Positions 18,941-50,033 of a stretch of DNA of 64,000 nucleotides are shown piece after piece. Source of the DNA: Streptomyces sp. OfavH-34-F (GTDB lineage: Bacteria; Actinomycetota; Actinomycetes; Streptomycetales; Streptomycetaceae); contig NZ_JAKRGC010000005.1 in the NCBI RefSeq assembly GCF_022347745.1, forward strand, positions 1-64,000, written 5' to 3'. Position numbers and translations under genes: made by a program. The notes under the pieces were generated by a model. The model saw only the letters and a list, made by a program, of their open reading frames with translations. It was not told where the DNA came from and ran no database searches. Within the stretch, counting starts at the first letter, position 1. Each line of letters starts with the position of its first letter.

Positions 18941-19675
18941 ATGAGCGGGAGCGAGTCCCGGAAGTCGGCAGGGAAGCAGGACGGCGCCAAGGCGAGCTTC
19001 GCCCTGCTGTGGGGCGAGCAGGGGCAGCCGAGCCGAGGCCCGAAGCCTTCTCTGTCCGCAGGCCGGATCGCCGAGACGGCCATCCGGATCGCTGACGACG
19101 AGGGTTTGGACGCGGTGTCACTGGCCCGGGTCGCCAAGAAGCTCGACGTCACGACGATGGCGTTCTACCGGTACGTCCCCGGCAAGGCCGAACTCGTCGA
19201 CCTGATGGTCGACCTCGCGATCGGCCCCCCGGCCCCCGTCGCGGGCATCGCCGGCGGCTGGCGCCCCCAGCTGACCGAGTGGGCCCGCCAGTGCGCGGCC
19301 GTGTACCGCCGCCACCCCTGGATCCTCACGGCCACGGGCATGCGCCGCCAGATCATGGGCCCCAATCAACTGGGCTGGCTGGACACCGCCTTGGCCGCGC
19401 TCGCCGGAACCGGACTGTCGCCCGTCCAGCGACACGACACCTTCCTGCTGCTCGTGGGCCACATCCGCAACATCACCCAGCAGACCGCCGAACACAACGA
19501 GGCGGCGAACGAGGAGTGGGCCGACCTGACGGCCGAGGTGCTGGAGCGCCACGCGGACCGTTTTCCCGCCCTCACGTCAGCTGTCGCAGAGGGTGCCTTC
19601 ACCCCGCAGGGCGGCGACCCACTGGACTTCGGCCTGGAGCGAATCCTGGACGGCGTGGCGGCCCTGCTCACCTGA
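18941..19675 (+). CDS. TetR/AcrR-family transcriptional regulator
   Basis: This 244-residue protein starts from the ATG at 18941, with GAGGGAG upstream. After a flexible N-terminus of about 35 residues, the TetR DNA-binding domain reads LSAGRIAETAIRIADDEGLD, then VSLARVAKKLDVTTMAFYRY. The rest is an alpha-helical ligand domain of the TetR_C type (LTEWARQCAAVYRRHPWIL, HIRNITQQTAEH). It is divergent from the alpha/beta hydrolase, with about 110 bases of repeat-rich DNA between, and probably represses it in response to a small molecule. Confidence 0.92.
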   Translation: MSGSESRKSAGKQDGAKASFALLWGEQGQPSRGPKPSLSAGRIAETAIRIADDEGLDAVSLARVAKKLDVTTMAFYRYVPGKAELVDLMVDLAIGPPAPVAGIAGGWRPQLTEWARQCAAVYRRHPWILTATGMRRQIMGPNQLGWLDTALAALAGTGLSPVQRHDTFLLLVGHIRNITQQTAEHNEAANEEWADLTAEVLERHADRFPALTSAVAEGAFTPQGGDPLDFGLERILDGVAALLT

Positions 19676-20243
19676 TGATGCGGCCTCGGCCCGGCAGTGC
19701 CAGACGCGCCGAGACGCGGAGCTGATGCCGGGTTCCCGGGCGACGGCGGTGATCGTCCTGCCCGAGGAGTCGACGAGCGCGCTCGCATCCGCCTCCGGGG
19801 CGCGAAAGATGCCGCAGTGGCGCCTTCTCGGGCGCGGGCGTGCGCCGCAGTGCTTTCTGGGGGGTATTCCAGGGGCGACATGATGAGCACGTCAACGTAT
19901 TTCTCGTACTAATTAGCTCACACCGGGGATACGGTGCCGCCCGTTATTCCGTCGGCAGGGAGAAGCGCGCTTCAATGGGCGAGTGCCCGACGGGCCCGCT
20001 CCGGCTGCCGCGTATTTCGGGAGTCGGTTGATGGTTAGAGCGGCGAGGATCGGTAATAAATGAGCTGGGTCGATGTAACGGGGGGCTATCGGCCGGGCGG
20101 GACTCGGTTGGTCGAAACCGCGCCCGAAATCAATCGGTGCATGAGCTGCTGACGCCCGGGGGTGTCCGCAGCCTGCTGGAACCACGGGCATTGTGCCGAT
20201 GCAGTGTTCTCTACCAAGCCGCCATCCCATGAGGAGAGTTCTG
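19676..20243. promoter_or_regulatory. Long leader region upstream of the PTM operon
   Basis: No convincing gene lies in these 568 bases. From about 19880 the base composition drops (CGTACTAATTAGCTCACA near 19907; GGTAATAAATGAG near 20051), unusual in this window and consistent with promoter or regulator-binding DNA for the operon that begins at 20244. A related sequence, CGGGAGTCGGTTGATGG and CGGGACTCGGTTGGTCG, occurs near 20020 and 20097. I cannot name a binding protein, and no promoter elements are certain. Confidence 0.4.
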
Positions 20244-21185
20244 GTGGGCGATTGCGGACGGCCGACCGATGGCGCGAATCCTTCGGTTCCTTTTTCGGGC
20301 AGGGAAAGGTATGCGGTCAAAAATTCGCTGGATCGTTTTCTCCGTACGGCCGCCTACCCGGTCCTGCTGCTGGCCGTTGTTCTGGTCGGAACAGCCGCAT
20401 TGCGCCTCGACTGGAATCCGGCGCTGGTCAGTCCGCTCTTTCTGGTCGGTACGCTCGTCTATCTCGGTGTACTCGAACGGGCCATCCCGTACGAACGGAA
20501 ATGGCACCCCGGCGGGGAAGAGTGGCGTTGGTACGGCGCCTACTTCCTGCTCACCGCGGGCGGAAGCGGTCTGGCGCAGCTCCTCGTCACGGCCACCGTC
20601 GGCCGGGTCTCGCCCGCAGAGCCGGTTCACCCCCTCGCGATCGAGATCCCCGGAGCCCTGCTGACCGGCTCATTCGTCAGCTACGCGGTACATCGGCTGG
20701 GGCACAGCAACCCACTCCTGTGGCGACTGCACGGCGTGCATCACGTGCCGGACAAGGTCAACGTCGCCAACAACGGGGTGAACCACGTGCTGGACACGGC
20801 TCTCGCCCAGGGCCTCGTCCAGCTGAGCCTGGCACTGCTGGGGTTCTCGCGTCCTGCTGTGCTGGTGGTGGGTCTTTTCGTCGCCGCCCAGGGCTACTTC
20901 GTCCACGCCAACATCGACGTGCGTATCGGGGCGTTCAACCATCTGCTGGCCAGCCCCGAGCAGCACCGCCTGCACCACAGCACGGACCTGTCCGAAGCCG
21001 GCCACTACGGCTCCGACCTGTCGTGCTGGGACCACCTCTTCGGCAGTTTCACCTGGCGCCCTGGCCGCGAACCGGCCTCGGTCGGACTCGGTGACCCCAC
21101 CTCGTTCCCCGGCACGGGGCAGATCCTCGCCAGCCTTCTGCATCCGTGGCGACGGCGCCCGGCCGGCAGAAGCGGGCGCGACTGA
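20244..21185 (+). CDS. ftdA: Sterol-desaturase/fatty-acid-hydroxylase family enzyme of PTM cluster
   Basis: This 313-residue integral membrane di-iron enzyme of the fatty acid hydroxylase superfamily starts from the GTG at 20244, chosen for GAGGAGAG about 8 bases upstream; an in-frame ATG at 20229 lacks a ribosome site. Hydrophobic spans occur at about residues 30-50, 58-72, 95-120 and 190-215. Histidine motifs that bind iron are present: HRLGH, HGVHH, and HRLHHS near the C-terminus. In PTM clusters (ftdA in frontalamide, SD in HSAF) this protein hydroxylates the ornithine-derived carbon C-3 of the tetramate macrolactam. It is the first gene of the six-gene operon, about 100 bases before the synthase gene. 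Confidence 0.9.
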   Translation: MGDCGRPTDGANPSVPFSGRERYAVKNSLDRFLRTAAYPVLLLAVVLVGTAALRLDWNPALVSPLFLVGTLVYLGVLERAIPYERKWHPGGEEWRWYGAYFLLTAGGSGLAQLLVTATVGRVSPAEPVHPLAIEIPGALLTGSFVSYAVHRLGHSNPLLWRLHGVHHVPDKVNVANNGVNHVLDTALAQGLVQLSLALLGFSRPAVLVVGLFVAAQGYFVHANIDVRIGAFNHLLASPEQHRLHHSTDLSEAGHYGSDLSCWDHLFGSFTWRPGREPASVGLGDPTSFPGTGQILASLLHPWRRRPAGRSGRD

Positions 21186-21288
21186 ACGCCATACCACGCC
21201 ACAGGCGCCGGCACGAGTCGGCGCCCCGGACCGGCACGCCCTCCGGCACCCGGCTTCTCTTCCGCCACCACGACTTGGGAGGTTCGAC

Positions 21289-24200
21289 ATGGCCGACGCG
21301 AGCAACAACCCGTTACGGAGCAAGGTGGCCATCATCGGCATGGGCTGCCGCCTGCCCGGCGGGGCCTCGGACCACCGGACGTTCTGGCGGAATCTGATGG
21401 CGGGCAAGGACTGCATCACGCCCACGCCCCCCGACCGCTACGACGTCACCACGCTGGGCAGCCGCCACCGGGACAAGCTTGGACGCCTCGTCGGCGGCCG
21501 CGGCGGATACATCGACGGGTTCGACGAGTTCGACCCCGAGTTCTTCGGCATCAGCCCCCGCGAGGCCGACCACATGGACCCCCAGCAGCGCAAACTGCTC
21601 GAGGTGGCCTGGGAGACACTGGAGGACGGCGGCCAGCGCCCCGCCGACCTCGCGGGCAGCGACGTCGCCGTCTACGTCGGCGCGTTCACCCTCGACTACA
21701 AGATCCTCCAGTTCGCCGACCTCGGCTTCACCTCGCTGGCCGCCCACACCGCGACCGGCACGATGATGACGATGGTGTCGAACCGCATCTCGCACTGCTT
21801 CGACTTCCGGGGCCCCAGCCTGTCGATCGACACCGCCTGCAGCTCCTCCCTGGTGGCCGTGCACCTCGCCTGCCAGGCACTGGACCGCCGTGAAAGCGAC
21901 CTCGCGCTCGCCGGCGGGGTCCTCCTGCACATGGCACCGCAGTACACCGTCGCCGAGACGAAGGGGGGATTCCTGTCACCCGGAGGCCGCTCACGCACGT
22001 TCGACGCGGACGCCGACGGCTACGTGCGGGCGGAAGGCGTCGGCCTGGTCGCGCTGAAGCGCCTGGAGGACGCCGTCCGTGACGGCGACCGCATCCACGC
22101 CGTGATCCTCGGCAGCGGAGTCAACCAGGACGGCCGCACCCCCGGCATCACCGTGCCCAACCCCGAGGCGCAGGTCTCCCTCATCCGGCGTGTCTGCGCC
22201 GAAGCCGGGATCACACCGGGCCAGCTCCAGTACATGGAGGCCCACGGCACCTCGACCCCCGTCGGCGACCCCATCGAGGCCAACGCGCTGGCGCGGGCCC
22301 TGGCCTTCGGACGAGCCCCCCAGGACCGCTGCTACGTCGGCTCGGTGAAGACCAACATCGGGCACACCGAGTCCGCCGCCGGGATTGCCGGCCTCATCAA
22401 GACCGTGCTGTGCCTCAAGCACCGGCACATCCCACCGCACATCAATCTGGAACGTCTCAACCCCGCCATCGACGCGGCCGCACTGCCCTACGAGATCCCC
22501 ACGCGGCCGACCCCATGGCCCGACCACGACGGGCCCGCGCGGGCCGGTGTCAACTCGTTCGGATTCGGCGGCACCAACGCCCACCTCGTACTGGAGGAGG
22601 CCCCGCCCGAAACACCGCCTGTCCCCACCCCGACCCCGGCGGCCACGACCAGTCCTGCCGCCGAGAACGCCGAACCCGGCGCCTCCCGCGAGAACGCCGA
22701 CGCGGACGGACGCCACTGGAGCATCCTGCCGCTGAGCGCCCGCCACCCGGAGGGCCTCGCCGCGATGGCGGGCCACCTCGCGAACGAACTCGCCGGCCGC
22801 GACGGCGCTCCGGGCGTGTCGCTGCCCGACCTCGGCCACACCCTGGCGCACCGCCGCCAGCACCTGCCCGAGCGGCTCTCCGTCGTGTACTCCTCGCGCG
22901 CCTCGCTGGACGAGGCGCTGACCGCGTACGGGCGGGGCGAGACCCACCCCCGCGTCGTGCAGGGCCGCCTGCGCGCCGCCGAGGACCGCCGACTGGTCTG
23001 GGTCTTCACCGGCATGGGGCCCCAGTGGTGGGGGATGGGCCGCCAACTCCTGCGGGACGAACCGGCGTTCCGCAAGGCCGTGACCGAGTGCGACCGCGTC
23101 CTGCGGGAGTTCGCCGGCTGGTCCCTGCTGGCGGAGATGACCGCCGGTGAAACCGCCTCACGCATGAACGAGACCTGGCTCGCGCAACCCGCCAACTTCG
23201 CCCTGCAGACCGGCCTGGCCGCCATGTGGCGCTCGTACGGGGTCCGGCCCGACGCCGTGGTGGGCCACAGCACGGGGGAGATCGCCGCCTTCCACGAAGC
23301 GGGCGTCTACTCCCTGGAGGACGCGGTCAGGATCGTGGTGCAGCGAAGCCGGCTCCAGCAGACACTGGCCGGCACCGGCACCATGCTGGCCGTGAGCCTG
23401 CCGGAGGACGAGGCCGAACGCCGGGTACGCCCCTACCAGGACCGGGTGTCGATCGCCGCCGTCAACAGCCCCGCATCCGTCACGCTCGCGGGCGAGGAGG
23501 CCGCGCTGACCCTGCTGGCCGACGAGCTGAAAGCCAATCAGGTCTTCGCCCGCTTCCTCACCGTCGCAGTCCCGTACCACAGCGTCGGCATGGAACGGAT
23601 CAAGGACGACCTCCTGGAGGCGCTGGCCCCGCTCACCCCACACCGGGCCCGTATCCCGCTGTACCTCACCGGCCAGGAGGGCACCGCGCAGGGCCCCGAG
23701 CTCGACGCGGCGTACTGGTGGAAGAACGTACGCGACCGGGTGCGCTTCCGGGCGGCCGTGGACCGCCTGGCCGACGACGGTCACCAGGTGTTCCTGGAGA
23801 TCGGCCCGCACCCGGTGCTCGGCCACTCGATCCGCGAATGCCTCGACGCCCGGGGAGCATCCGGCCTCACCCTGCCGTCGATCCGCCGCAAGGAGAACGA
23901 GAGCGAGCGGTTCGCCACCTCGCTGGCGAGCCTCCACAACCTCGGCACCGGCATCGACTGGCACACCCTGCAACCCACCGGCCGGCCCGTCACCCTGCCC
24001 CGCTACCCCTGGAAGCGCGACCGGCACTGGACCGAGCCGCCGCCCGTCGCCCAGGTACGCCTGGGCCTCGTCGACCACCCACTCCTCGGCCGCCGCACCG
24101 ACCACACGGAGCCGACCTGGCAGGCCCGGCTCGACACCGAGACCCTGCCCTACCTCGCCGACCACCGCATCCAGGACCTCGTGGTCTTCCCCGCCGCCGG

Positions 24201-27200
24201 CTATCTGGAAATGGCCTCCCAGGCCGTCCTGCGGCTCACCGGAGGCAGCCACACCGTCCTCGCCGACATCGACCTGCGCAAGGCGCTCTTCCTCCCCGAC
24301 ACCGAGGACAGAACCGTTCAGCTGTCCTTCTCCCTGGAGAACGCCACCTTCACGGTCGCCTCCCCGGCCGGACCCGACGGAGAGCCGACCGTGCACGCGA
24401 GCGGCGTGGTCCGCAGCGGACAGCGACGCGAGACCGGCCCCCCGCTCGACGCCCCGGCCATCCGGGTACGCACCGAGCGCCGCCTCGACGGCCCGGCCTG
24501 CTACGCCGCGCTCGCCGGGCTCGGCTACCAGTACGGGCCCGCCTTCCAGGCCATCGAAGAGGTGTGGGTCGGCAAACGGGAGGTGCTCGCCCGGATTCGC
24601 CCGCCCCGCGCCATCGGTGACGACGCGGCCGGCCACCACCTCCACCCGGTCCTGCTCGACGCCTGCTTCCAGTCGCTGCTGACTCCGCAGATCCTGGAGG
24701 ACCGCACCGCCCCGACCGCCGTCAGACTGCCGCTGTCCGTGGGGGAGGTGGCGCTCGGACCCGTCGGCGACCAGCCGCTCTGGGCGCACGCCACACTGCT
24801 CCCCGGCGACGAGGACACGACTCTCGGGGACATCGCCCTGTACGCAGACGACGGAGCGCCGCTGGGCCGGATCAGGGGCTTCAAGGCCGGCGACGTGGAG
24901 AAGGCGGCTACCACCGTCGGACGCACCACCATCGACTCCTGGCTCGCCGAGACCGTCTGGGTCGAACGCCCGTCCGAACCGGCGGAGTCCGACGCCCCGG
25001 CCGCCACGGCGCGGGACCACGGATGGCTGCTCCTGGCCGACGAGCACGGCGTCGCCGACGCCTTCGCCTCCCTGGCAGCGGCCCGGGGCGAACGCTGCCA
25101 CTTGGTGCGCCGGGGCGACCGCTACACGGCGGCGGGCCCCGGCGGCGCGTATACCGTCGCCCCCGGGTCCGCGGCCGATCTGGAACGCCTCTTCGCCGAC
25201 CTGGACCGGGACGGCCGGCCCTTCCACGGAGCCGTCCTGCACCTCTGGAACCTCGACAGGCCGGAGCTCGCCCAGTGCGACCGGCAGGCCCTCGACGACC
25301 ACACCGGCCCGGGCTCCTACTCACTGGTCGCGCTCGCCCGCGTCCTGCTCGCCCGCGGCACACAGGGCCGCCTGCACATCGTGACCCGCGGCGCCCAGCC
25401 GGTCCTGCCCGGCGAGGCGGTCGAACCGCTCGGGGCGCCCGCGTGGGGCGTCGGCCGGGTACTGCGCCACCAGGAACTCGCCGGCCACCCGGGAAAGCTC
25501 ATCGACCTCGACCCCCGTACGCCGACCGGCCCCGCCGGCGCACGCGCCGACGCCGAAGCACTGCTGCGGGAAGCGCTGAGCGACGACGAGGAGGAGGTCG
25601 CGCTGCGCGCCGGAGCCCGCAGCACCAGCCGCCTCCGCCCCGCCGAAGGGCTCACGCGGCCCCTGCCCCTCAGGCTGCGGGCCGACGGCAGCTACCTGGT
25701 GACCGGGGCCTTCGGCGCGCTGGGCCGCCTCCTCTGCCGCACCCTGGTCCGCCGGGGAGCCCGCAGACTCGTCCTGGTCGGCCGCACACCGGTCCCCGCC
25801 CGTGAGGAATGGGGCGGCATCGACCCCGCCACCCCGGAGGGCCGCGCCGTCGCCCTCCTGCGGGAACTGGAGGCTCTGGGCGCCCAGACCGTCCTGGCTC
25901 CCCTCGACATCACCGACGAGGACGCCCTGACCAGCTGGCTCGACGCGTACCGGCGCACCGGCCCGCCGCCGCTGCGCGGCGTCTTCCACCTCGCCGGTCA
26001 GGTACGCGACACCCTGGTCACCGATCTGGACCGGGCCACGTTCGACGCCGTCCACGGGCCCAAGACCATCGGCGCCTACCTCCTGCACCGACACCTGCGC
26101 GACGAACCCCTCGACCACTTCGTGCTGTTCGCCTCGATCGCTTCCCTGCTGACCACCGCGGGCCAGACCAACTACGCCGCGGGCAACGCCTTCCTGGACG
26201 CCCTCGCCCACCACCGCCGCGCCTCGGGCCTGCCCGCGCTGAGCCTGGACTGGGGGCCCTGGGCCACCGGAATGATCGAGGAACTGGGCCTGGCCGACCA
26301 CTACCTGCACAGCCGCGGCATGAGCTCCCTCGCCCCGGAGGCCGGGATGGGTGTGCTGGAGCGGGTCATCGGCCAGGACCACGCCCAGCTGATCGTCGCC
26401 ACCGTCGTCGACTGGCCCGTCTTCCTGGCCTGGTATCCGGCCCCGCCACCCCTGGTCACCGACCTGGCCGCGGCAGCCGCCCCGCAAGGGGCGGCCGGAT
26501 CGGGCAACGCCTTCCTCGATGTCTTCGCCGGCGCCGACGAGGACACCCGCCGCTCCATGGCGGCCGAACGGTTCGCCGCACTGGCCGCCGCCGTTCTCCG
26601 CACCGGTGCGGACCGCGTCGACATGGCGAGCGGCCTCGGCGTCCTCGGCCTCGACTCGCTGCTCGCCATGGAGCTGCGTGCCCGGATCCACGCCGAACTG
26701 GGCGTGGCGCTGCCCGTGGTCGCCCTCCTGAGCGGCGCATCGGCCGGCGAACTGGCGACCCAGCTCCACGACGGGCTGGCCGCGCTGGTCTCCGCCGACG
26801 ACCCCGACGGGACGGCCGGCGCCGTCGAACAGCACCACGACGAGAACCAGTACCCGCTGACCCAGAACCAGAAGGCCCTCTGGTTCCTCAAGCACCTCAA
26901 CCCCGACGGCTACGCGTACAACATCGGGGGAGCCGTCGAGGTGACCGTAGCCCTCGAACCGGAGCTGATGTTCGAGGCCGTCCGCCGGCTGATCGCCCGG
27001 CACCCCGCACTGCGCACCAACTTCCACCTGGAGGACGGCCGGGCCGTCCAGCGGGTCTCCCCGGACGCGGAGCCGGACCTCGCCCTCTTCGACGTGCAGG
27101 ACCAGGACTGGGAGACCATCCACCGCACGATCGTCGCCGAATACCGCAAACCGTACGACCTCGCACACGACCCGCTGGTCCGCTTCCGCCTCTTCAAACG

Positions 27201-30200
27201 CGGCCCCGAGCGCTGGGTCATCATGAAGGCCGTCCACCACATCGTCTCCGACGCCATCTCCACGTTCACCTTCATCGAGGAACTCTTCGAGGTGTACGAG
27301 GCGCTGAGGCAGGGGCGGGAACCGCACCTCGCACCGGTGGGCGCGCGCTATCTCGACTTCCTGAACCAGCAGAACGCGTTCCTGGCCGGCCGCGAGGCAG
27401 CCGGCATGCTCGACTACTGGCGCTCCCACCTGCCCGCCGAGGTACCGCTCCTCGACCTGCCCGTCGACAAGCCCCGCCCGGCCGTCCAGACGCACAACGG
27501 GGCATCGGAGTTCTTCGTGCTCGACGCCGGCCTCACCGCCCGCGTCCACACACTCGCCCGCCTCCACGGCGTCACCCCGTTCATGGTGCTGCTGAGCGCC
27601 TACTACCTCCTGCTCCACCGCTACTCCGGGCAGGACCACATCGTCGTCGGCAGCCCCGTGACCGGCCGCACCCGGCAGGACTTCGCCTCCGTCTACGGCT
27701 ACTTCGTCAACCCGCTCCCGCTGCACGCCGACCTCTCGGGCGACCCGACCGTCACCGAACTCCTCGAACAGGTCCGCCGTACCGTGCTGGGCGGCCTGGA
27801 CAATCAGGAGTACCCCTTCGTCCTCCTCGTCGAGGAACTGGGCCTCCAGCACGACCCCAGCCGCTCGGCCGTGTTCCAGGCGATGTTCATCCTGCTGACC
27901 CACAAGGTGGCCACCGAACAGTACGGATACCGGCTCAACTACATCGAACTCCCCGAAGAAGAAGGGCAGTTCGACATCACCCTGTCGGCCTACGAGGACG
28001 AGTCGGAGCACCGGTTCCACTGCGTGTTCAAGTACAACTCCGACCTCTTCCTCCCCCGGACCGTCCAGCGGATGGCCTCCCACTACACCCGCCTGCTCGA
28101 CCGGATGACCCGGGCGGACGGCGAGGAGGCCGTCTCCCGGCTGGAGATGCTCGACGACGCCGAACGGAAGCGGCTGACCGAACGGTGGAGCAGGCCCGCC
28201 CTCCTCCCCGCCACCCGACCCGACTCCGCGGAAGACGACGCGCCCTTCGTGCCGGTCCACACCCTCATCGGCCGGGTCGCCGCCGAGCGCCCCGACGCCG
28301 TCGCCGTCACCGCGCCCTCGCCGGACGGCACCGCCCGGCGGTTGACCTACCGGGAGCTGGAGAGCCGGGCCACCGCATGCGCCCGCCGGCTGCGCGCCCT
28401 CGGCGTCACACACGGTTCGGTGGTGGCGCTGCGGCTCGACAAGTCGCCCGAGATGATCGTCACCCTCCTCGCCGTACTGAAGGCGGGCGGGGCCTACCTT
28501 CCCGTCCCACCCGACCAGCCGGCGGACCGGGTGGCGCACCTCCTGCGGACCACGGGCGCGGTGCTCGTCGTCGAGGACACCACGAAGCCGGACACCACGG
28601 GGCCGGACAGCGCCGCCGGATGGCCCGTCGCGACGGTGACCCCGGACGCGCTGCACGCGGACCCGCCGGACAGCGGACCGGAGCAGGGGAGCCCTCCCGC
28701 CGCCGTGCGCCCCGACTCGCCCGCGTACGTCATCACCACCTCCGGATCGACCGGACGGCCCAAGGCGGTCGAGGTCGGCCACGGCAACCTCGCCGCTGCG
28801 TACGCGGCGTGGCGTGACACCTACCGCCTGGAACAGGACGTCCGCGTGCACCTCCAGATGGCCGGACCGTCGTTCGACGTGTTCACCGGCGACCTGGTCC
28901 GCGCGCTGTGCTCGGGCGGAAACCTGGTCCTGGCCGACCGGGACCTGATCTTCGACACGGCGCGCCTCTACCGGACGATGCGCCAGGAACAGGTGGACTG
29001 CGCCGAATTCGTCCCGGCGGTGGTACGCGGCCTGATGGACCACTGCGACCGTGAAGCCGTGCGGCTGGACTTCCTGCGGCTGCTGGTGGTCGGCTCGGAC
29101 GCGTGGAACGTGGCGGAGTACCGCCGGCTGAGCGCGCTGTGCGGCCCGGCCACCCGGCTCGTCAATTCCTACGGCCTGACCGAGGCCACCATCGACAACG
29201 CCTACTTCGAGGGCCCCGTCGACGACCTCGAGCCCGGCCTGATGGTCCCCATCGGCCGGCCCCTGCCCCACAGCACCCTCCACATCCTCGACCGGCACGG
29301 CGAGCCCGTCCCGCCCGGCATCCCCGGAGAACTGTGGATCGGCGGCCCGGCGGTGGCCCTCGGATACGCGGGCGACCCCGACGAGACCGGCAGCCGTTTC
29401 GTGACCCGCGTCCTGAGCCGCAGCCCGCACGCGGCCCCCGAACGCCTCTGCCGGACCGGCGACATCGCCCGCTGGGACGCACACGGCCGCGTCCACCTGC
29501 TGGGCCGCACGGACGGCCAGGTGAAGCTGCGCGGCCACCGCATCGAGACCGGCGAGATCGAAGCACACCTGCACCGGTGGCCCGCACTCGCCCGGGCCGT
29601 GGTCACCGTGCGCGCGGACAGCGGGGGAGACGCCGCACTCTGTGCCTACTGCGTGCCCGCTCCCGGCTCCGAGCTGGACCGGCGGGCGCTCCGGCGCCAC
29701 CTGGCCGCCTCCCTGCCCTCGTACATGATCCCCTCCTACATCGTCCCCGTACCCGCCCTGCCGCTCACCGCCAACGGCAAGGTCGACCTCGCCGCGCTGC
29801 CCGCCCCGAGCGCCGAGACACGGGAGCGGCCCCACGAACCACCGGCCACCCTCTACGAGGTGAGCATGGCCCGGCACTGGAAGGAACTGCTCGGTCTCGA
29901 AGAGGTGGGCCTGGCCGACGACTTCTTCGAGTCCGGGGGCAGCTCCATCAAGCTCATCGAACTCCTCCACCACCTGCGCACCGAATTCGGGGTCACCGTC
30001 CCCGTCAGCCGTCTCTACCGCACGACCACCCTGCACGGCATGGCGGCCACGCTGGAGGAAGTCCTGCAGGGCACGACGGCCGACGAACTGCCCTTCCTGA
30101 CCTTCAACAGCGGACAGCCCGCGCTCCTCTTCGCGTTTCCGCCGGCCGGCGGCCACGGACTCGTCTACCGCGGCCTCGCCTCCCACCTCCCGGAGTACAC

Positions 30201-30774
30201 CGTCCTGGGGTTCAACTACCTTCCCGGCGACGACAAGATCGTCCGGTACGCCGATCTGATCGAGGCGGCACAGCCCGGAGGGCCCTGCCTGCTCCTCGGC
30301 TACTCCCTCGGCGGCAACCTCGCCTTCGAGACCGCCAAGGAACTGGAGCGCCGCGGCCGGCAGGTCGCCCACGTCGTGGTCCTGGACTCCCGCCGCATCC
30401 TGGAGCCGTACGCCCCCGGCGACGAGGGAATCCGGCTCTTCGAAGCGGAACTCGCCGAGCACCTGCGCAAACACACCGGGTCGGAAGCCGTCACCCGCGA
30501 AACCCTCGCCCACGCGGCCGAGTACCTGTCCTTCTGCGGACGTACCCCCAACACCGGCACCGTCACCGCGTCGGTCAGCGTCATCACCGACGAGGAGAAG
30601 GCATCCCTCTACGCCGCCGGCGAGCGTGGCACCTGGCACGGCAGCTCGACCGGCCCCACCACCGTGCTGCGCGGCTCCGGCATCCACGCCGACATGCTCG
30701 ACCCCAAGCACCTCGCCCGCAACGCCGAGCTGGTGCGCGCCCTGCTGACGGGGGAGGCGGCCCATGGCGGATGA
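21289..30774 (+). CDS. ftdB: Iterative PKS-NRPS hybrid synthase for polycyclic tetramate macrolactam
   Basis: The protein has 3161 residues and starts from an ATG with GGGAGG upstream. Domains in order: KS (about 13-437; Cys184, His319, His359), AT (570-875; GHSTGE with Ser661, PYH at 762-764), DH (930-1220; His959, Asp1124), KR (1465-1720; TGAFGALG, Tyr1629), ACP (Ser1790), C (1855-2290; HHIVSDA with His1983-1984 and Asp1988), A (2326-2840; Lys2831), PCP (Ser2886) and TE (2930-3155; GYSLGG with Ser3006). There is no ER or methyltransferase. In PTM systems one such module works iteratively to build two polyene chains and attach both to ornithine; the TE region helps tetramate formation. The A-domain pocket reads D-V-G-E-V-G-S-I-D-K, next to the known ornithine code. 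Codon 9 (21313-21315) is TTA, implying bldA dependence. It overlaps the next gene by 11 bases. Confidence 0.95.
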   Translation: MADASNNPLRSKVAIIGMGCRLPGGASDHRTFWRNLMAGKDCITPTPPDRYDVTTLGSRHRDKLGRLVGGRGGYIDGFDEFDPEFFGISPREADHMDPQQRKLLEVAWETLEDGGQRPADLAGSDVAVYVGAFTLDYKILQFADLGFTSLAAHTATGTMMTMVSNRISHCFDFRGPSLSIDTACSSSLVAVHLACQALDRRESDLALAGGVLLHMAPQYTVAETKGGFLSPGGRSRTFDADADGYVRAEGVGLVALKRLEDAVRDGDRIHAVILGSGVNQDGRTPGITVPNPEAQVSLIRRVCAEAGITPGQLQYMEAHGTSTPVGDPIEANALARALAFGRAPQDRCYVGSVKTNIGHTESAAGIAGLIKTVLCLKHRHIPPHINLERLNPAIDAAALPYEIPTRPTPWPDHDGPARAGVNSFGFGGTNAHLVLEEAPPETPPVPTPTPAATTSPAAENAEPGASRENADADGRHWSILPLSARHPEGLAAMAGHLANELAGRDGAPGVSLPDLGHTLAHRRQHLPERLSVVYSSRASLDEALTAYGRGETHPRVVQGRLRAAEDRRLVWVFTGMGPQWWGMGRQLLRDEPAFRKAVTECDRVLREFAGWSLLAEMTAGETASRMNETWLAQPANFALQTGLAAMWRSYGVRPDAVVGHSTGEIAAFHEAGVYSLEDAVRIVVQRSRLQQTLAGTGTMLAVSLPEDEAERRVRPYQDRVSIAAVNSPASVTLAGEEAALTLLADELKANQVFARFLTVAVPYHSVGMERIKDDLLEALAPLTPHRARIPLYLTGQEGTAQGPELDAAYWWKNVRDRVRFRAAVDRLADDGHQVFLEIGPHPVLGHSIRECLDARGASGLTLPSIRRKENESERFATSLASLHNLGTGIDWHTLQPTGRPVTLPRYPWKRDRHWTEPPPVAQVRLGLVDHPLLGRRTDHTEPTWQARLDTETLPYLADHRIQDLVVFPAAGYLEMASQAVLRLTGGSHTVLADIDLRKALFLPDTEDRTVQLSFSLENATFTVASPAGPDGEPTVHASGVVRSGQRRETGPPLDAPAIRVRTERRLDGPACYAALAGLGYQYGPAFQAIEEVWVGKREVLARIRPPRAIGDDAAGHHLHPVLLDACFQSLLTPQILEDRTAPTAVRLPLSVGEVALGPVGDQPLWAHATLLPGDEDTTLGDIALYADDGAPLGRIRGFKAGDVEKAATTVGRTTIDSWLAETVWVERPSEPAESDAPAATARDHGWLLLADEHGVADAFASLAAARGERCHLVRRGDRYTAAGPGGAYTVAPGSAADLERLFADLDRDGRPFHGAVLHLWNLDRPELAQCDRQALDDHTGPGSYSLVALARVLLARGTQGRLHIVTRGAQPVLPGEAVEPLGAPAWGVGRVLRHQELAGHPGKLIDLDPRTPTGPAGARADAEALLREALSDDEEEVALRAGARSTSRLRPAEGLTRPLPLRLRADGSYLVTGAFGALGRLLCRTLVRRGARRLVLVGRTPVPAREEWGGIDPATPEGRAVALLRELEALGAQTVLAPLDITDEDALTSWLDAYRRTGPPPLRGVFHLAGQVRDTLVTDLDRATFDAVHGPKTIGAYLLHRHLRDEPLDHFVLFASIASLLTTAGQTNYAAGNAFLDALAHHRRASGLPALSLDWGPWATGMIEELGLADHYLHSRGMSSLAPEAGMGVLERVIGQDHAQLIVATVVDWPVFLAWYPAPPPLVTDLAAAAAPQGAAGSGNAFLDVFAGADEDTRRSMAAERFAALAAAVLRTGADRVDMASGLGVLGLDSLLAMELRARIHAELGVALPVVALLSGASAGELATQLHDGLAALVSADDPDGTAGAVEQHHDENQYPLTQNQKALWFLKHLNPDGYAYNIGGAVEVTVALEPELMFEAVRRLIARHPALRTNFHLEDGRAVQRVSPDAEPDLALFDVQDQDWETIHRTIVAEYRKPYDLAHDPLVRFRLFKRGPERWVIMKAVHHIVSDAISTFTFIEELFEVYEALRQGREPHLAPVGARYLDFLNQQNAFLAGREAAGMLDYWRSHLPAEVPLLDLPVDKPRPAVQTHNGASEFFVLDAGLTARVHTLARLHGVTPFMVLLSAYYLLLHRYSGQDHIVVGSPVTGRTRQDFASVYGYFVNPLPLHADLSGDPTVTELLEQVRRTVLGGLDNQEYPFVLLVEELGLQHDPSRSAVFQAMFILLTHKVATEQYGYRLNYIELPEEEGQFDITLSAYEDESEHRFHCVFKYNSDLFLPRTVQRMASHYTRLLDRMTRADGEEAVSRLEMLDDAERKRLTERWSRPALLPATRPDSAEDDAPFVPVHTLIGRVAAERPDAVAVTAPSPDGTARRLTYRELESRATACARRLRALGVTHGSVVALRLDKSPEMIVTLLAVLKAGGAYLPVPPDQPADRVAHLLRTTGAVLVVEDTTKPDTTGPDSAAGWPVATVTPDALHADPPDSGPEQGSPPAAVRPDSPAYVITTSGSTGRPKAVEVGHGNLAAAYAAWRDTYRLEQDVRVHLQMAGPSFDVFTGDLVRALCSGGNLVLADRDLIFDTARLYRTMRQEQVDCAEFVPAVVRGLMDHCDREAVRLDFLRLLVVGSDAWNVAEYRRLSALCGPATRLVNSYGLTEATIDNAYFEGPVDDLEPGLMVPIGRPLPHSTLHILDRHGEPVPPGIPGELWIGGPAVALGYAGDPDETGSRFVTRVLSRSPHAAPERLCRTGDIARWDAHGRVHLLGRTDGQVKLRGHRIETGEIEAHLHRWPALARAVVTVRADSGGDAALCAYCVPAPGSELDRRALRRHLAASLPSYMIPSYIVPVPALPLTANGKVDLAALPAPSAETRERPHEPPATLYEVSMARHWKELLGLEEVGLADDFFESGGSSIKLIELLHHLRTEFGVTVPVSRLYRTTTLHGMAATLEEVLQGTTADELPFLTFNSGQPALLFAFPPAGGHGLVYRGLASHLPEYTVLGFNYLPGDDKIVRYADLIEAAQPGGPCLLLGYSLGGNLAFETAKELERRGRQVAHVVVLDSRRILEPYAPGDEGIRLFEAELAEHLRKHTGSEAVTRETLAHAAEYLSFCGRTPNTGTVTASVSVITDEEKASLYAAGERGTWHGSSTGPTTVLRGSGIHADMLDPKHLARNAELVRALLTGEAAHGG

Positions 30775-32452
30775 CGGACCCACCGACTGGAACAGCCGGG
30801 AACGCACCCCGGGCACACCCCCACGCGTCCTCGTCATCGGCGCCGGCGTGGCCGGCCTCTCCACCGGCTGCTACGCCCGGATGAGCGGCGCCCGGACCCA
30901 CATCCTCGAGAAGCACGTACTGCCCGGCGGCTGCTGCACCGCCTGGTCGCGCGACGGCTACCTCTTCGACTACTGCATCGAATGGCTCATCGGCACCGCT
31001 CCCGGCAACGACGCCCATCAGGTGTGGCGTGAACTGGGCGCCTTCGACGGGAAGACGATGACCAACTTCGACCTCTTCAACAAGGTCGAGGACGCGAGCG
31101 GCCGGTCGGTGACGTTCTACAACGACCCGGACCGTCTCGAAGCCCACCTCCTGGAGATCTCACCCCTCGACTCCGCTCCCATCCGGACGTTCACCCGGGA
31201 CCTGAGGCGGTTCACCACGATCGACCTCTACCCGTTCCTGACCGCGCCCCCGCTGCGCACGGTACGGGAGAGGGCGGCGCTGCTGCGCACCCTGCTGCCC
31301 GCCTTCCGCCTGTTCTGGCGCACCGCGACGACCCCGATGCACACCTTCGCCGACACCTTCCACGATCCGCTCCTGCGCCAGGCCTTCCGCAACATCTTCT
31401 TCCAGGACCCGGAGGGCTTCCCGCTCCTTCCGTACCTCTTCAACATGGCTGCCGCCCACCACGGCAACGCGGGCTTCCCGCAGGGCGGCTCGCTCGGTCT
31501 GGCCCGGTCCATCGAGGAGCGGTACCTCGGCCTCGGCGGCACGGTCACCTACCGGGCCCGCGCCGAGAAGATCCTGGTGGAGAACGGGCGTGCGATCGGC
31601 GTCGAGCTGAGGAACGGCAGGCGCTGCTACGCCGAGCACATCGTGTCGGCCTGCGACGGCCACACCACGGTGTACGGACTGCTGGGCGGCCGCTACACCG
31701 GACCCCGGATCGAGAAGCTCTACACCGACCTGATCGAACGCCCCGGCACCCTCTTCCCGGCCGTCGTGTCGGCCTTCGCCGGCATCCGCGGCCCGTTCGG
31801 TGAAGGCGAGGCGCACAGCACCACCCATCTGCTGTCCGCCGAAGACGCGGCCGAGCTGCCCGGTGCCCTGCAGAACAGCCTGGTCGTCCAGGTACGGTCC
31901 CGCTACTCCGACGGATTCGCCCCGCCCGGCCACAGCGTCGTGCACTGCACCTACTTCAGCGACTACGCCTACTGGAAGGAGCTGCGCACCAGGGACCGCA
32001 AGGAGTACCGGCTCCGCAAACGCCAGGTCGCCGCCTTCGTACGCCGCTTCCTCGAACGCCGCGACCCCGGGCTCGCCGGCCGCATCGAGCTGGTCGACGT
32101 CGCCTCGCCCGCCACCACGCACCGTTACACCGGCAACCACGACGGCTCGATCCTGGCCTGGAAGGCATTCTCCGACGCCGACGACGTCGCCTCCCAGCTC
32201 GTCGGCAAGGACCGTATGCGCCTGCCCGGACTGAGTGGATTCTCCATGGCCGGCCAGTGGGTCGGCATGGGCGGCCTGATCCGCGCGGCCTCCACGGGCC
32301 GCTTCGCCACGCAGTACCTCTGCCGCGAACTGGGGCTGGAGTTCCGCGCCTGGGAAAGCGACGGCACCCTCACCGAACCCTGGCACCCGGGGAAGCTGGG
32401 GCACCTGCCCCAGCTCGACCGCTGGTCAGCACGGGAGGGGACCGGCTCATGA
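30764..32452 (+). CDS. ftdC: Phytoene-desaturase-like FAD oxidoreductase of PTM cluster (first)
   Basis: This 562-residue CrtI-like flavoprotein has the dinucleotide motif VIGAGVAGLSTGCYARMSGA near residue 23 and a following GGCCTAW that is typical of this clade. Near the C-terminus, GQWVGMGGLIRAASTGRFAT is the second FAD-contact block. In PTM clusters paired enzymes of this type catalyse reductive or oxidative cyclisations that build the five-membered rings from the polyene chains. The ATG lies inside the end of the synthase gene (11-base overlap), and the stop overlaps the next ATG (ATGA), so expression is tightly coupled. It is a clear paralogue of the next gene, sharing order and motifs throughout. 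Confidence 0.93.
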   Translation: MADDGPTDWNSRERTPGTPPRVLVIGAGVAGLSTGCYARMSGARTHILEKHVLPGGCCTAWSRDGYLFDYCIEWLIGTAPGNDAHQVWRELGAFDGKTMTNFDLFNKVEDASGRSVTFYNDPDRLEAHLLEISPLDSAPIRTFTRDLRRFTTIDLYPFLTAPPLRTVRERAALLRTLLPAFRLFWRTATTPMHTFADTFHDPLLRQAFRNIFFQDPEGFPLLPYLFNMAAAHHGNAGFPQGGSLGLARSIEERYLGLGGTVTYRARAEKILVENGRAIGVELRNGRRCYAEHIVSACDGHTTVYGLLGGRYTGPRIEKLYTDLIERPGTLFPAVVSAFAGIRGPFGEGEAHSTTHLLSAEDAAELPGALQNSLVVQVRSRYSDGFAPPGHSVVHCTYFSDYAYWKELRTRDRKEYRLRKRQVAAFVRRFLERRDPGLAGRIELVDVASPATTHRYTGNHDGSILAWKAFSDADDVASQLVGKDRMRLPGLSGFSMAGQWVGMGGLIRAASTGRFATQYLCRELGLEFRAWESDGTLTEPWHPGKLGHLPQLDRWSAREGTGS

Positions 32453-34230
32453 CCGAGACGCAGAGCGCTACGGGGCCCGGCGGCACCAGCTCCGACACCC
32501 CCCGGCCCCGGGAGACGATGATCATTATCGGGGCCGGCCTCGGCGGCCTCTCCACCGGCTGCTACGCGCAGATGAACGGCTACCGCACCAGAATCCTGGA
32601 GATGCACGAAATCCCGGGCGGCTGCTGCACGGCCTGGGACCGAGGAGGCTTCACCCTCGACTGCTGCGTCAGCTGGCTCCTCGGCAGCGGCCCCGGCAAC
32701 GAGATGCACCAGATCTGGCTGGAACTCGGCGCGCTGCAGGGCAAGGAAGTACGCCACTTCGACGTCTTCAACATCGTGCGCGGCCAGGACGGCAGGGCCG
32801 TCCGCTTCTACTCGGACCCCGACCGCCTGGAGGCGCACCTCATCGAACTCTCACCCGCCGACGCCAGGACGGTGCGCAAGTTCTGCGCCCAGCTGCGGAC
32901 CTTCCGCAAGGCGCTGGCCGTCTACCCCTTCCTCAAGCCCGTCGGCCTGATGAGCAGGACGGAACGCTGGCGCATGCTCGCCTCGTTCGTCCCCTACTTC
33001 AACGCCGTCCGCACCACCATCTCCGTCCTGATGACCGACTTCTCGGCCCGGTTCAAGGACCCCCTCCTGCGCGACGCGTTCAACCACATCCTGTACGAGA
33101 AGCACCCGGCATTCCCCGTGCTGCCGTTCCACTTCCAGCTCGCCTCGCACGCCAACCTGTCGGCCGGAGTCCCCGAGGGCGGTTCGCTGGGACTGGCCGA
33201 ATCCATCGAGCGACGCTACCGACGCCTCGGCGGAGAGGTCTCGTACAACACGAAGGTCGAGTCCGTCATCGTCCAGGACGACCGCGCGGTCGGCGTCGAA
33301 CTCAGCGACGGAAGCGAACTGCGCGCGGACATCGTCGTGTCCGCCTGCGACGGATACACCACGACCATGAAGCTCCTGGGCGGCCGCTACCTCGACGACA
33401 CCTACCGGCGCCTCTACACCCGGACCATCCAGGAACCGGGCATGGTCTTCCCCGGCTACTTCACCCTCTTCCTCGGCCTTTCCAGGCCCTTCCCGGAGGG
33501 TGACCCCTGCACGACCTACCTGCTCGACGAGGCCACGGCGGCCGAACTCACCGGCATCCGCCACCCGAGCATCAACGTCCAGTTCCGCAGCCGCCACTAC
33601 CCGGAGCTGTCACCGAGCGGCACCACCGTCGTCTACGCCACCTACTTCTGCGACATCGCCCCGTGGCGGGCCCTGGACGAAGGACCGGAACAGGTCACCC
33701 GGACCCGCGGCGGCGAAAGGCTCCACACCCTGCCCGTGCGGCACGGACGCGGCTACTACGCCGCGAAGCGACGGGCGCGGGAAGCACTCGTGGACTTCCT
33801 GGAACAACGTTTCCCCGGCCTCCGGGAGGCGATCGTCGTCCGCGACGTCTCCACCCCCCTCACCCAGGTGCGCTACACCGGCAACTACGACGGCACGGTC
33901 CTCGGCTGGCAGCCGTTCGTGGAGAGCGGGGAGACCCTGGAGGAGCTGATCAAGAAGCACGGCCCCGGCCTCCCCGGACTGCGCAACTTCTACCAGTCCG
34001 GTGTGTGGGCCACCACCGGCGGACTGATCAGGGCCGCCGCCGCCGGACGCCACGTCATGCAGTTCGTCTGCCGCGACGACGGCAAGCCCTTCACCGCGTC
34101 GGTGGACCGCACAGCGCCCCCGCCGACCCACCGCGTCATCCCCGTGCCGCCACACCCCGACCCCCCTCCCACCGAAGGGCGGCGAGCCGCCGGCGAACGG
34201 ACGACAGGGAAGGCAGGAACGAACACATGA
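32449..34230 (+). CDS. ftdD: Phytoene-desaturase-like FAD oxidoreductase of PTM cluster (second)
   Basis: This 593-residue paralogue of the preceding protein starts from the ATG at 32449 (GGGAGGGG upstream). Motifs: IIGAGLGGLSTGCYAQMNG, then IPGGCCTAWDRGGF; later SVVV-type beta strands and VRYTGNYDGTVLGWQPF; and GVWATTGGLIRAAAAGRH at the C-terminus. A proline-rich tail of about 40 residues (PPPTHRVIPVPPHPDPPPTE) is not found in the first paralogue. PTM biosynthesis uses this enzyme to form the first (outer) five-membered ring; loss of it in related clusters leaves uncyclised or differently cyclised polyenes. It overlaps both neighbours by ATGA. Confidence 0.92.
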   Translation: MTETQSATGPGGTSSDTPRPRETMIIIGAGLGGLSTGCYAQMNGYRTRILEMHEIPGGCCTAWDRGGFTLDCCVSWLLGSGPGNEMHQIWLELGALQGKEVRHFDVFNIVRGQDGRAVRFYSDPDRLEAHLIELSPADARTVRKFCAQLRTFRKALAVYPFLKPVGLMSRTERWRMLASFVPYFNAVRTTISVLMTDFSARFKDPLLRDAFNHILYEKHPAFPVLPFHFQLASHANLSAGVPEGGSLGLAESIERRYRRLGGEVSYNTKVESVIVQDDRAVGVELSDGSELRADIVVSACDGYTTTMKLLGGRYLDDTYRRLYTRTIQEPGMVFPGYFTLFLGLSRPFPEGDPCTTYLLDEATAAELTGIRHPSINVQFRSRHYPELSPSGTTVVYATYFCDIAPWRALDEGPEQVTRTRGGERLHTLPVRHGRGYYAAKRRAREALVDFLEQRFPGLREAIVVRDVSTPLTQVRYTGNYDGTVLGWQPFVESGETLEELIKKHGPGLPGLRNFYQSGVWATTGGLIRAAAAGRHVMQFVCRDDGKPFTASVDRTAPPPTHRVIPVPPHPDPPPTEGRRAAGERTTGKAGTNT

Positions 34231-35282
34231 AGATCAAGAAGTGGGTGGTCCGCGAGCACGTCGAGGGCGTACCCGACGTGAACCGGATGTACGAGAAGGT
34301 GGTCGAGGATCTCGACGTGGACCTCGCCCCCGACGAGATGCTCCTGCGCACGCGCTACGTCTCGGTCGACCCCTACCTCCACGGCATCGCACTGGACACC
34401 CCGCGCGGGGCCCACATGGGGGCCGACTCGATCATGGAGGTGCTGGAGGCAGGACCGCTCGCCGCACACCGCCCCGGCGACCTGGTCCAGGGGTTCGGCG
34501 GCTGGCGCTCCCATCTCGTCAGCACCGGCGCCGCCGAACGCTGGCAGACCGGCACCTTCCCCATGGTCTTCCCCGCCTACCGCAGGCTCGACCCCGCCCG
34601 GTACGACGCCGCCCTGCCGCTGCCGACCGCCCTGAGCGTGGTGGGAGGCCCCGGCATGACGGCCTGGGGAACCCTCACCAAGTACATGAGCATCAGACCC
34701 GGCGACACCTTCCTCATCAGCGGGGCGTCCGGCGCGGTGGGTGTACTCGCCGGCCAGCTGGCCGCTCGTGCGGGCGCCCGGGTCATCGGCACCACCTCGT
34801 CCCCGCGGAAGGCGGACGACCTCGCGGCGCTCGGCTTCGACACGGTCCTCATCTACCGGCACGGAGACAGCGCCGAGACCATCGGCAAGGCACTGGCGCG
34901 TGCCGCCCCGGACGGCATCGACCGGTACTTCGACAACCTGGGCGGCACGATCACCGACGCCGTGTTCCCCATGCTCAACATCGGCAGCCAGGTGGCGGTG
35001 TGCTGGCAGTGGGCGACCCAGGTCGGCAACGCCGACGTCGGGCCGCGACTCCTGCCCTACCTCATGTTCCCGCGCGCGACGGTACGGGGGATCTTCTCCC
35101 TGGAGTGGTTCACCGAACAGAACTGGCAGGCGCTCCACACCGAGCTGGGCGGCCTGGTCCGGCGTGGCGAGATCGTCTGCGACCACACCTTCCACCACGG
35201 CTTCGACGCCATCCCCGCCGCCTACGCCAGCCTCTACCGCGACCGCGACACCAACCGCGGGAAAGTACTTGTCGCACTCTGA
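34227..35282 (+). CDS. ftdE: NADP-dependent MDR reductase of PTM cluster
   Basis: This 351-residue member of the medium-chain dehydrogenase/reductase superfamily belongs to the zinc-free branch that includes leukotriene B4 dehydrogenase and curcumin reductase. Features: RYVSVDPYLHG near the N-terminus, GGPGMTAWGTL, the NADP motif SGASGAVGVLAGQLA, and FDNLGGTITDAV. In PTM clusters the corresponding alcohol-dehydrogenase-like enzyme forms the inner six-membered or last ring by reductive cyclisation, so its presence predicts a tricyclic (5/5/6 or 5/6/5) product rather than a bicyclic one. The ATG overlaps the stop of the preceding gene. Confidence 0.92.
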   Translation: MKIKKWVVREHVEGVPDVNRMYEKVVEDLDVDLAPDEMLLRTRYVSVDPYLHGIALDTPRGAHMGADSIMEVLEAGPLAAHRPGDLVQGFGGWRSHLVSTGAAERWQTGTFPMVFPAYRRLDPARYDAALPLPTALSVVGGPGMTAWGTLTKYMSIRPGDTFLISGASGAVGVLAGQLAARAGARVIGTTSSPRKADDLAALGFDTVLIYRHGDSAETIGKALARAAPDGIDRYFDNLGGTITDAVFPMLNIGSQVAVCWQWATQVGNADVGPRLLPYLMFPRATVRGIFSLEWFTEQNWQALHTELGGLVRRGEIVCDHTFHHGFDAIPAAYASLYRDRDTNRGKVLVAL

Positions 35283-35335
35283 CGGCCGGGCCGCCCTCAC
35301 CACGCATCTCCCACCGGCACCACCGAGGAGGCACA

Positions 35336-36541
35336 GTGACCACCCCCCAACACCAGCCTCCGGGCCATGCGGCCCGGGCCCACGTCCCGATGCACGCCCT
35401 CCCCTTCGACGCGCCGGGACCGCCCCGCCCCACCCGGCTCCCCGACGGCTCCCCGGCGTGGCTGGTCAGCCGATACCCCGACGTCCGGCAGGTCCTCTCC
35501 GACCCTCGCTTCGGCCGGGCGCGGCTGTACGGTGACGAGGCCCCCGCCCTATTCGACGCGCCGGACCTCGTGAACAACCCCGACCTGATGTTCAACCAGG
35601 ACGGCCGCGACCACATGATGCTCCGCCGCACCCTGCGCCGCGCCTTCACCCCCAGGGTGGTCGCCCGCTGGAGGCCGTGGATCACCGAGATCGTGAAACA
35701 ACTCCTCCACGAAATGGCGTGCCGGCCGCAGCCCGCAGACGTGGTGGAGTCGTTCACCTTCCCGCTGCCGGTGGCCGTCATCAGCCGGCTGATGGGACTC
35801 GACCCGTCGGTCCGGCACCGGCTGCGCCACTGGGCCGAGCACGCCTTCTCGGACGGCTCCCACGACGAGAAGCAAGTGGAGGACGCCCTAAGGGATTTCA
35901 GCGCGTTCGGGTCCGCGATCCTCGACGAACGGCGCCGGACGCCCGGTGACGACCTGATCAGCGGCATCGTCCGTGCGGCCGACGAGGAAGGCGGCCTCCC
36001 CGAAGCCCAACTGGTGAGCCTGGTGTGCGGCCTCGTCGTCGGCGGCCATGACAGCACGATGACCATGCTCGGCAACGGCCTGCTCTACCTCCTCGGCGAA
36101 CGGCCCGAGACCTGGCACCGGCTGGGCACGGACGAGGAAGCCGCCGGCACCGTGGCGGACCGGCTGATCCACCTCGTCCCGCTCGGAGACGACCGGGGCT
36201 CCGCACGCCGCGCATCGGAGCAGGTGGTGATCGGCGGCGTGACGATCCCGGCGGGGGCCGTCGTCCTCGCGGACTGCGCCATGGCCAACCGCGACCCGGA
36301 CGTCTTCCCGACCCGCCTGCACGACGGACTCTTCACTCCGCTGGAGGCGCCCACCCTCTCCTTCGGAGCGGGAGCCCACTACTGCCTCGGAACGTGGCTG
36401 GCCCGGGCGGAACTCCAGATCGCCCTGCACCACCTGGCCGCCCGCTTCCCGGGCCTGCGCCTCGCGGAGCCCACACGATCCGTCACCTGGCGCACCGGAA
36501 GCACATCCCGCAGCCCCCGGAGCCTCGCCGTCACCTGGTGA
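35336..36541 (+). CDS. ftdF: Cytochrome P450 of PTM cluster
   Basis: This 401-residue P450 starts at a GTG with GAGGAGG upstream, 53 bases after the reductase gene. The I-helix motif is VVGGHDST (about 231-238), and the haem loop FGAGAHYCLG gives the cysteine ligand Cys350. The K-helix region, normally containing ExxR, reads VADRLIHLVPLG at 273-284; there is no ExxR, a rare loss also known from CYP157 enzymes. PTM P450s add late oxidations (hydroxyl, ketone or epoxide) to the ring system. Last gene of the operon; it converges on the SARP gene. Oxidation site and product are not predictable. Confidence 0.9.
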   Translation: MTTPQHQPPGHAARAHVPMHALPFDAPGPPRPTRLPDGSPAWLVSRYPDVRQVLSDPRFGRARLYGDEAPALFDAPDLVNNPDLMFNQDGRDHMMLRRTLRRAFTPRVVARWRPWITEIVKQLLHEMACRPQPADVVESFTFPLPVAVISRLMGLDPSVRHRLRHWAEHAFSDGSHDEKQVEDALRDFSAFGSAILDERRRTPGDDLISGIVRAADEEGGLPEAQLVSLVCGLVVGGHDSTMTMLGNGLLYLLGERPETWHRLGTDEEAAGTVADRLIHLVPLGDDRGSARRASEQVVIGGVTIPAGAVVLADCAMANRDPDVFPTRLHDGLFTPLEAPTLSFGAGAHYCLGTWLARAELQIALHHLAARFPGLRLAEPTRSVTWRTGSTSRSPRSLAVTW

Positions 36542-36631
36542 CGCCCTCCGTCCCGCACGAGACCGACGGGCCACAGGCAGGGGCGGCGGCGGCTTTCGGG
36601 GTGACCGAGACATCCCCTGCGGGACACCGCT

Positions 36632-39466: not shown

Positions 39467-39632
39467 GTGAACCCCCTCCACCCGCGGCAGCGTAGCCAGC
39501 GGGCGGTCGTGCCGAACAGGCGATTCAAGGTCGTCCCAAGGTTTGTCCCCGGCCAGTCGCGAACAGTGGTGTCCGCCGGCGGGAAAGCCCGCCGGACGAG
39601 CCGGGCGAGCTGACGGAAGGCAGGGAAGCGCG

Positions 39633-46073: not shown

Positions 46074-46195
46074 CCAGACCCCTCGTCCCGCCGCGCGCCT
46101 CAGCCGCGCGGCGGTCGGCACCCTGCCCTCCCCTCAGCCCGATGCCGCACCACCGACGACAGCGGGGGTTAAGCCTGCTCAGATTGGAGCCACAC

Positions 46196-49882: not shown

Positions 49883-50033
49883 AAGTCGAGGCTCTCCAGC
49901 CGTACGGCCACCCGGTCCAGGCCAGTCGTGAAGCCTCGAAGGCAACGCCACCCTGGTCGTCTCGGGCAATGTCGGCGCGCTACCGGCCATCTTCTGGTGC
50001 GGGTGCAGCAGTTGCCGTAGGGTGCCGGACGAA

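Follow-up and report, generated by a model that had tools for sequence, protein, structure and literature searches.

Gene content and layout of the ftd cluster

The window (the whole stretch of Streptomyces sp. OfavH-34-F DNA that was analysed, 64,000 nucleotides) carries a six-gene polycyclic tetramate macrolactam (PTM) cluster, ftdA–ftdF, at 20244–36541 on the forward strand (Table 1). All six genes are co-directional, and their reading frames contain no stops and no frameshifts. The initial annotation had listed a hydroxylase, a synthase, two flavoenzymes, an MDR reductase and a P450 in this order, and both the open reading frames and the Pfam matches agreed with it. The Pfam domains of the synthase likewise followed the proposed order KS-AT-DH-KR-ACP-C-A-PCP-TE. 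The proposed GTG start of ftdA at 20244 was retained, as it aligned with the ATG or GTG starts of 15 relatives. This alignment ruled out a frameshift in ftdA (codon 20316 is GTC). A GTG at 20193 and a competing ORF at 20162–21094 were set aside because the relatives matched the frame of 20244 and nothing beyond that start.

Table 1. Features of the PTM locus and its flanks (positions are those of the window)
Feature	Position	Strand	Description
alpha/beta hydrolase	17745–18830	−	Flank gene, divergent partner of the TetR gene
TetR regulator	18941–19675	+	Flank gene, probably outside the PTM cluster
IS3-type transposase OrfA remnant	19689–19790	−	102 bases, ~31 residues recognisable; three bases left of the shared block
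ftdA upstream region common to SirexAA-E	19794–20243	+	Conserved core; slot of the relatives' AdpA box, box absent
ftdA	20244–21185	+	313 aa, GTG start; fatty-acid/sterol-desaturase-type hydroxylase; Pfam FA_hydroxylase, 4.6e-25
ftdB	21289–30774	+	3161 aa; iterative PKS-NRPS (domains from Pfam)
ftdC	30764–32452	+	CrtI-like FAD oxidoreductase, SGR813/PtmB1 position; Amino_oxidase/NAD_binding_8
ftdD	32449–34230	+	CrtI-like FAD oxidoreductase, SGR812/PtmB2/OX3 position; Amino_oxidase/NAD_binding_8
ftdE	34227–35282	+	MDR reductase, prostaglandin-reductase-related; ADH_N_2/ADH_zinc_N
ftdF	35336–36541	+	Cytochrome P450, GTG start; Pfam p450; putative late oxidation
AfsR/SARP-like regulator	36632–39766	−	BTAD, NB-ARC and TPR; convergent with ftdF

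The genes ftdB and ftdC overlap by 11 bases, and the ftdC/ftdD and ftdD/ftdE pairs by 4 bases each. Gaps of 103 and 53 bases separate ftdA from ftdB and ftdE from ftdF, respectively. The overlaps therefore tie only ftdB to ftdE, which qualifies the earlier proposal that they indicate one operon.

The cluster contains exactly two CrtI-like FAD oxidoreductases. For both FtdC and FtdD, the NCBIfam models for CrtI and carotenoid isomerase were the nearest, with scores below the cut-offs, and phytoene dehydrogenase was the nearest solved structure for FtdD (E 6e-15). The nearest NCBIfam models for FtdE, also below the cut-offs, were those for curcumin and prostaglandin reductases. Over its full length, FtdE matched the solved sequences 9jp8 (E 1.1e-164) and 9ji7 (E 1.3e-163), both titled 'NADP-dependent oxidoreductase'. 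FtdF matched many bacterial P450s. CftA was among them (E 2.6e-64) but was not the top match, and the identity of FtdF with CftA is therefore not established. Outside the cluster, a gene for a flavin amine-oxidase-like protein (46142–47314, +) adjoins an alcohol dehydrogenase gene (45039–46073). The lowest G+C content of the window, in 2-kb steps, was found at 48001–50000 (0.63, vs 0.67–0.75 elsewhere).

Relatives of the cluster

A protein search of species genomes confirmed 454 relatives, and the best 80 of these 454 loci were kept. A near-full-length ftdB (53–90% identity) was present in 72 of the 80, of which one has an internal stop, and the gene arrangement is thus no chance find. The comparison of synthases included 71 proteins, after omission of eight that were cut at contig ends and of the one with the internal stop (locus L082). 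Internal stops were also found in ftdA of locus L029 and in ftdC of locus L033. An ftdF with at least 66% identity was present in 30 of the best 80 of 454 loci, with some others cut by contig ends; of 391 further genomes sampled from the genus, 22 had one with at least 67% identity.

Among the best 80 of 454 loci, the closest cluster was that of Streptomyces sp. SirexAA-E (L009), followed by that of S. halstedii. The identities to SirexAA-E for ftdA to ftdF were 84, 90, 95, 92, 89 and 86%. In the tree of 72 synthases, the window paired with SirexAA-E and then with S. halstedii, within a griseus-type clade of 20 rows (SH-aLRT 100 each), and the DNA trees of ftdA, ftdC, ftdD, ftdE and ftdF also paired the window with SirexAA-E (SH-aLRT 96–100). 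The two clusters have the same six genes in the same order, with a GTG start in ftdA and no perfect AdpA box. However, their flanks are unrelated, and SirexAA-E has the shorter branch in all six gene trees.

The six-gene layout, with its two FAD oxidoreductases and a P450, is also that of the S. griseus SGR810–815 genes and of the S. griseus group (L068, S. griseus NCTC13033 and others). The identity to L068 was 74–89%, and the roles of SGR810–815 are described in PMC8399814. Unlike the window, most clusters of this group have a perfect AdpA-consensus box ~160 bp before ftdA, and their flanks are different. A further counterpart, likened to the window by description only, is the frontalamide cluster ftdA–F of Streptomyces sp. 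SPB78, which PMC6950151 presents as a Group I 5/5/6 producer and whose FtdA and FtdF serve there as references for the hydroxylase and the P450. The ikarugamycin cluster ikaABC has a similar synthase, FAD oxidoreductase and reductase (PMC11724479, PMC8399814), but it is described with a single FAD oxidoreductase and a 5/6 system (PMC8399814), whereas the window has two such genes. The Lysobacter HSAF cluster resembles the window in its hydroxylase, synthase and reductase and in its 5/5/6 rings, and differs from it by three FAD oxidoreductases (PMC6950151).

Each of the six proteins thus had relatives in PTM clusters, and the gene set, gene order and synthase domains equalled those of the described Group I, which upheld the PTM assignment. 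For the label 'frontalamide type', which the cluster had been given earlier, 'S. griseus SGR810–815 type' is an equally apt alternative, as the nearest relatives are SirexAA-E and S. halstedii, with the S. griseus group next. The gene content is ordinary, and PTM clusters of this kind are found in dozens of Streptomyces.

Integrity of the synthase

The initial annotation had considered the catalytic residues of the synthase intact, and all tested residues were indeed present. Those of KS, AT, DH, ACP, C and TE (Ser/His), together with the KR Tyr and Asn, were found in FtdB and in 71/71 full-length relatives. FtdB also has the KR Ser (66/71 relatives) and the PCP Ser (68/71 relatives). The pocket of the FtdB A domain, with its ten positions placed by hand, reads D-V-G-E-L-V-S-I-D-K, largely as in the 71 relatives (D, V, G, S, D and K in all 71; E and V in 70; L in 62; I in 59). 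Eight of these ten hand-placed positions equal an ornithine code, and the domain is a candidate ornithine-activating one.

Changes private to the window in otherwise-invariant columns were counted in alignments with 32 chosen loci, where rows without a given gene were missing and the ftdF alignment excluded five loci that lack a true copy of this gene. FtdB had seven such changes (33-row alignment; row median 5, maximum 51), and each of the other five Ftd proteins had 0–4. Two of the seven FtdB changes, near motifs A6 and A7 of the A domain, are unusual: A2688 (G2688A; codon 29350–29352) replaces a Gly that is present in 71/71 relatives, and C2721 (Y2721C; codon 29449–29451) a Tyr that is present in 69/71, with Cys in the other two. 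These two residues would count against the reading of intact function. The dN/dS values against SirexAA-E were 0.14–0.30 across ftdA–ftdF, and all six genes are still under purifying selection.

Proposed chemistry

Each step of the proposed chemistry is modelled on published relatives. PTM synthases are described as joining two polyene chains to ornithine at its two amino groups (PMC6950151, PMC8399814, PMC11724479); FtdB would make two such chains iteratively, couple them to both amino groups and release the product as a tetramate. Two FAD oxidoreductases lead to a 5/5 system, with PtmB2/SGR812/OX3 closing the first ring (PMC6950151, PMC8399814) and PtmB1 the second (PMC6950151). By this analogy, FtdD would close the first five-membered ring and FtdC the second. 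An alcohol dehydrogenase forms the inner six-membered ring (PMC6950151, PMC8399814, PMC11724479), a reductive closure that is predicted here for FtdE. FtdA is the putative C-25 hydroxylase, as C-25 is the position given for the PTM hydroxylase (PMC6950151, PMC8399814), and FtdF may add one further oxidation. For P450s of the FtdF type, the assigned reaction was still only a prediction in 2021 (PMC8399814). For a core with one and two added oxygens, PMC11724479 gives ions near m/z 495 and 511, from which subtraction yields 479 for the core alone.

By the published scheme (PMC6950151, PMC8399814), two FAD oxidoreductases and an MDR reductase place the cluster in Group I, with predicted 5/5/6 rings. 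Very probably, the window contains a complete and presumably functional Group I PTM cluster of the S. griseus/frontalamide kind.

Upstream region of ftdA

The region upstream of ftdA contains a conserved core near 20033–20060, which is GGTTAGAG in the window; the 15 relatives aligned with it have GGTTAAAG or GATTAAAG. A perfect AdpA consensus (TGGCGTGAAC or TGGCGCGAAC) lies ~160 bp before the ftdA start in 11 of 15 chosen relatives; simple shuffles gave 0.03–0.08 perfect matches per 330-bp region. The corresponding slot in the window is at about 20091–20107. No perfect AdpA box was found in the 330 bp upstream of ftdA in the window, in SirexAA-E (L009) or in S. halstedii (L026), and a site with one mismatch remains upstream of ftdA in the window. 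In the wider set of 64 relatives with ftdA and enough upstream DNA, 15 had the box ~160 bp before ftdA, including 13 named griseus-group strains, and six others had a different perfect match elsewhere upstream. In the synthase tree, the sister clade comprises 17 rows, of which 16 have ftdA and 13 of these 16 the box (positions by tblastn, approximate); L014, L018 and L058 have altered forms. As neither the window nor its two nearest relatives, SirexAA-E and S. halstedii, have the box, it may, within the sampling, have been lost in this three-strain group or gained in the sister clade.

In the 65 otherwise-invariant columns of the promoter and gene start, the window had nine private changes, including a gap and a change in the second codon. 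The other 15 rows had 0–5 each (22/862 pooled). This excess may partly follow the longer branch of the window. A scan for sigma-70-type sites upstream of ftdA found none; such a scan carries little weight in Streptomyces. A 2021 PNAS paper is said to have found that AdpA directly activates PTM promoters and that weak producers have promoter indels. Since the AdpA box is missing and nine otherwise-invariant promoter and start columns are changed, the cluster could be weakly expressed. It is thus possible that ftd expression is reduced or rewired.

Genomic setting

The block common to the window and SirexAA-E extends from 19794 to 36553, with 90% DNA identity. The flanks were compared with those of 27 chosen loci that have both ftdA and ftdF, and at a same-strand threshold of 600 bases and E 1e-30 neither flank of the block in the window resembled any of these. 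SirexAA-E and S. halstedii have a common left flank, and 14 griseus-group loci have another left flank in common. Right flanks were more variable than left flanks among the 27 loci.

The IS3-type OrfA remnant adjoins the shared block on its left. By eye, 22 of its 31 recognisable residues are identical to those of an OrfA in another genome, which is followed there by an OrfB with an rve domain. DNA like the remnant was detected in four of 60 other genomes, in one to three copies each (E 1.7e-9 or better). No transposase remnant was identified at the right edge of the block. Beyond the OrfA remnant lies the hydrolase-TetR pair. The hydrolase had a match in 36 other genomes, and in the six with the most similar hydrolase both genes of the pair were found together (72–87% protein identity), on stretches of 4.7–19 kb without PTM genes. 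A search of these six genomes for an empty site did not find the right-flank genes of the cluster, with the stretches of L146 and L148 ending 0.4–1.4 kb past the TetR gene. The flanks unlike those of relatives, the IS3 remnant at the edge, and the occurrence of the hydrolase-TetR pair elsewhere without PTM genes make it likely that the PTM cluster moved to its present site; the direction of the move is not established.

Rate of evolution

The window branch was longer than that of SirexAA-E in all six gene trees. With S. halstedii as the outgroup, there were 292 unique amino-acid changes in the window and 99 in SirexAA-E, and at fourfold sites 306 vs 178. The corresponding numbers with S. cyaneofuscatus were 213 vs 112 and 264 vs 160. 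The fourfold excess of the window was significant with either outgroup (p below 1e-6), and the window lineage evolved faster than that of SirexAA-E. The additional excess at the protein level had p 0.0003 with S. halstedii and p 0.36 with S. cyaneofuscatus, and relaxed constraint is not established because the two outgroups disagree. Recombination between SirexAA-E and S. halstedii was not needed as a cause of the long window branch, as five gene trees pair the window with SirexAA-E.

Alternative interpretations

The related synthase and reductase are also common to the ikarugamycin and HSAF clusters, and the product might have a different ring system, either ikarugamycin-like 5/6/5 or of HSAF Group II. 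The window has two separate FAD oxidoreductase genes, against one and three in those clusters, and we regard a ring system other than that of Group I as highly improbable. Another alternative concerns the TetR and AfsR/SARP-like genes, both of which directly adjoin the cluster and might belong to it and control the ftd genes. However, the flanks of the best 80 of 454 PTM loci (stretches of up to 10 kb, many shorter) contained neither regulator, save for one partial SARP match of 37%. The TetR gene accompanies the hydrolase in 6/6 other genomes, with PTM genes absent from the fetched stretches, and the best relative of the AfsR/SARP-like protein in 60 other genomes was 53% identical. Membership of either regulator in the cluster is therefore improbable.

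More weight can be given to the idea that a structurally complete cluster stays effectively silent in its host, having moved to a new site, lacking AdpA control and evolving under weaker constraint. The missing perfect box, present in 13/16 of the sister clade, is consistent with silence, as are the nine private changes in 65 promoter columns, above the count in any of 15 relatives. The longer window branch in six gene trees, the flanks unlike those of compared relatives and the IS3 remnant at the edge point the same way. On the other hand, dN/dS stays low in all six genes, which have no frameshift or stop, and the surplus of protein-level over fourfold changes reaches significance with only one of the two outgroups. 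The promoter count partly tracks branch length, since the remaining rows whose nearest neighbours are distant have 1–5 changes. The box is missing from SirexAA-E and S. halstedii too, and the one-mismatch AdpA site persists in the window. Silence is thus rather unlikely, and the cluster is better read as complete, probably functional and of Group I. A fuller account is similarly tentative and, taken as a whole, doubtful: that a 16.8-kb block moved in one lineage to another place on the chromosome, bears an IS3-type scar at its left edge, left AdpA control behind and evolved faster while its coding regions stayed intact.

Significance

The PTM family of Streptomyces antibiotics is already well known, and the mild surprises of this locus are its flanks and the missing likely control site. 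The window adds one more complete cluster to this family of antifungal and cytotoxic compounds, with an FtdA that is 16% and a P450 that is 14% different from the nearest relatives. If the missing AdpA box matters, the three-strain group would offer a simple comparison for quiet PTM clusters. If the block did move and AdpA control was lost, the window, SirexAA-E and S. halstedii would together serve as a natural experiment on the survival of an antibiotic cluster whose control has changed.
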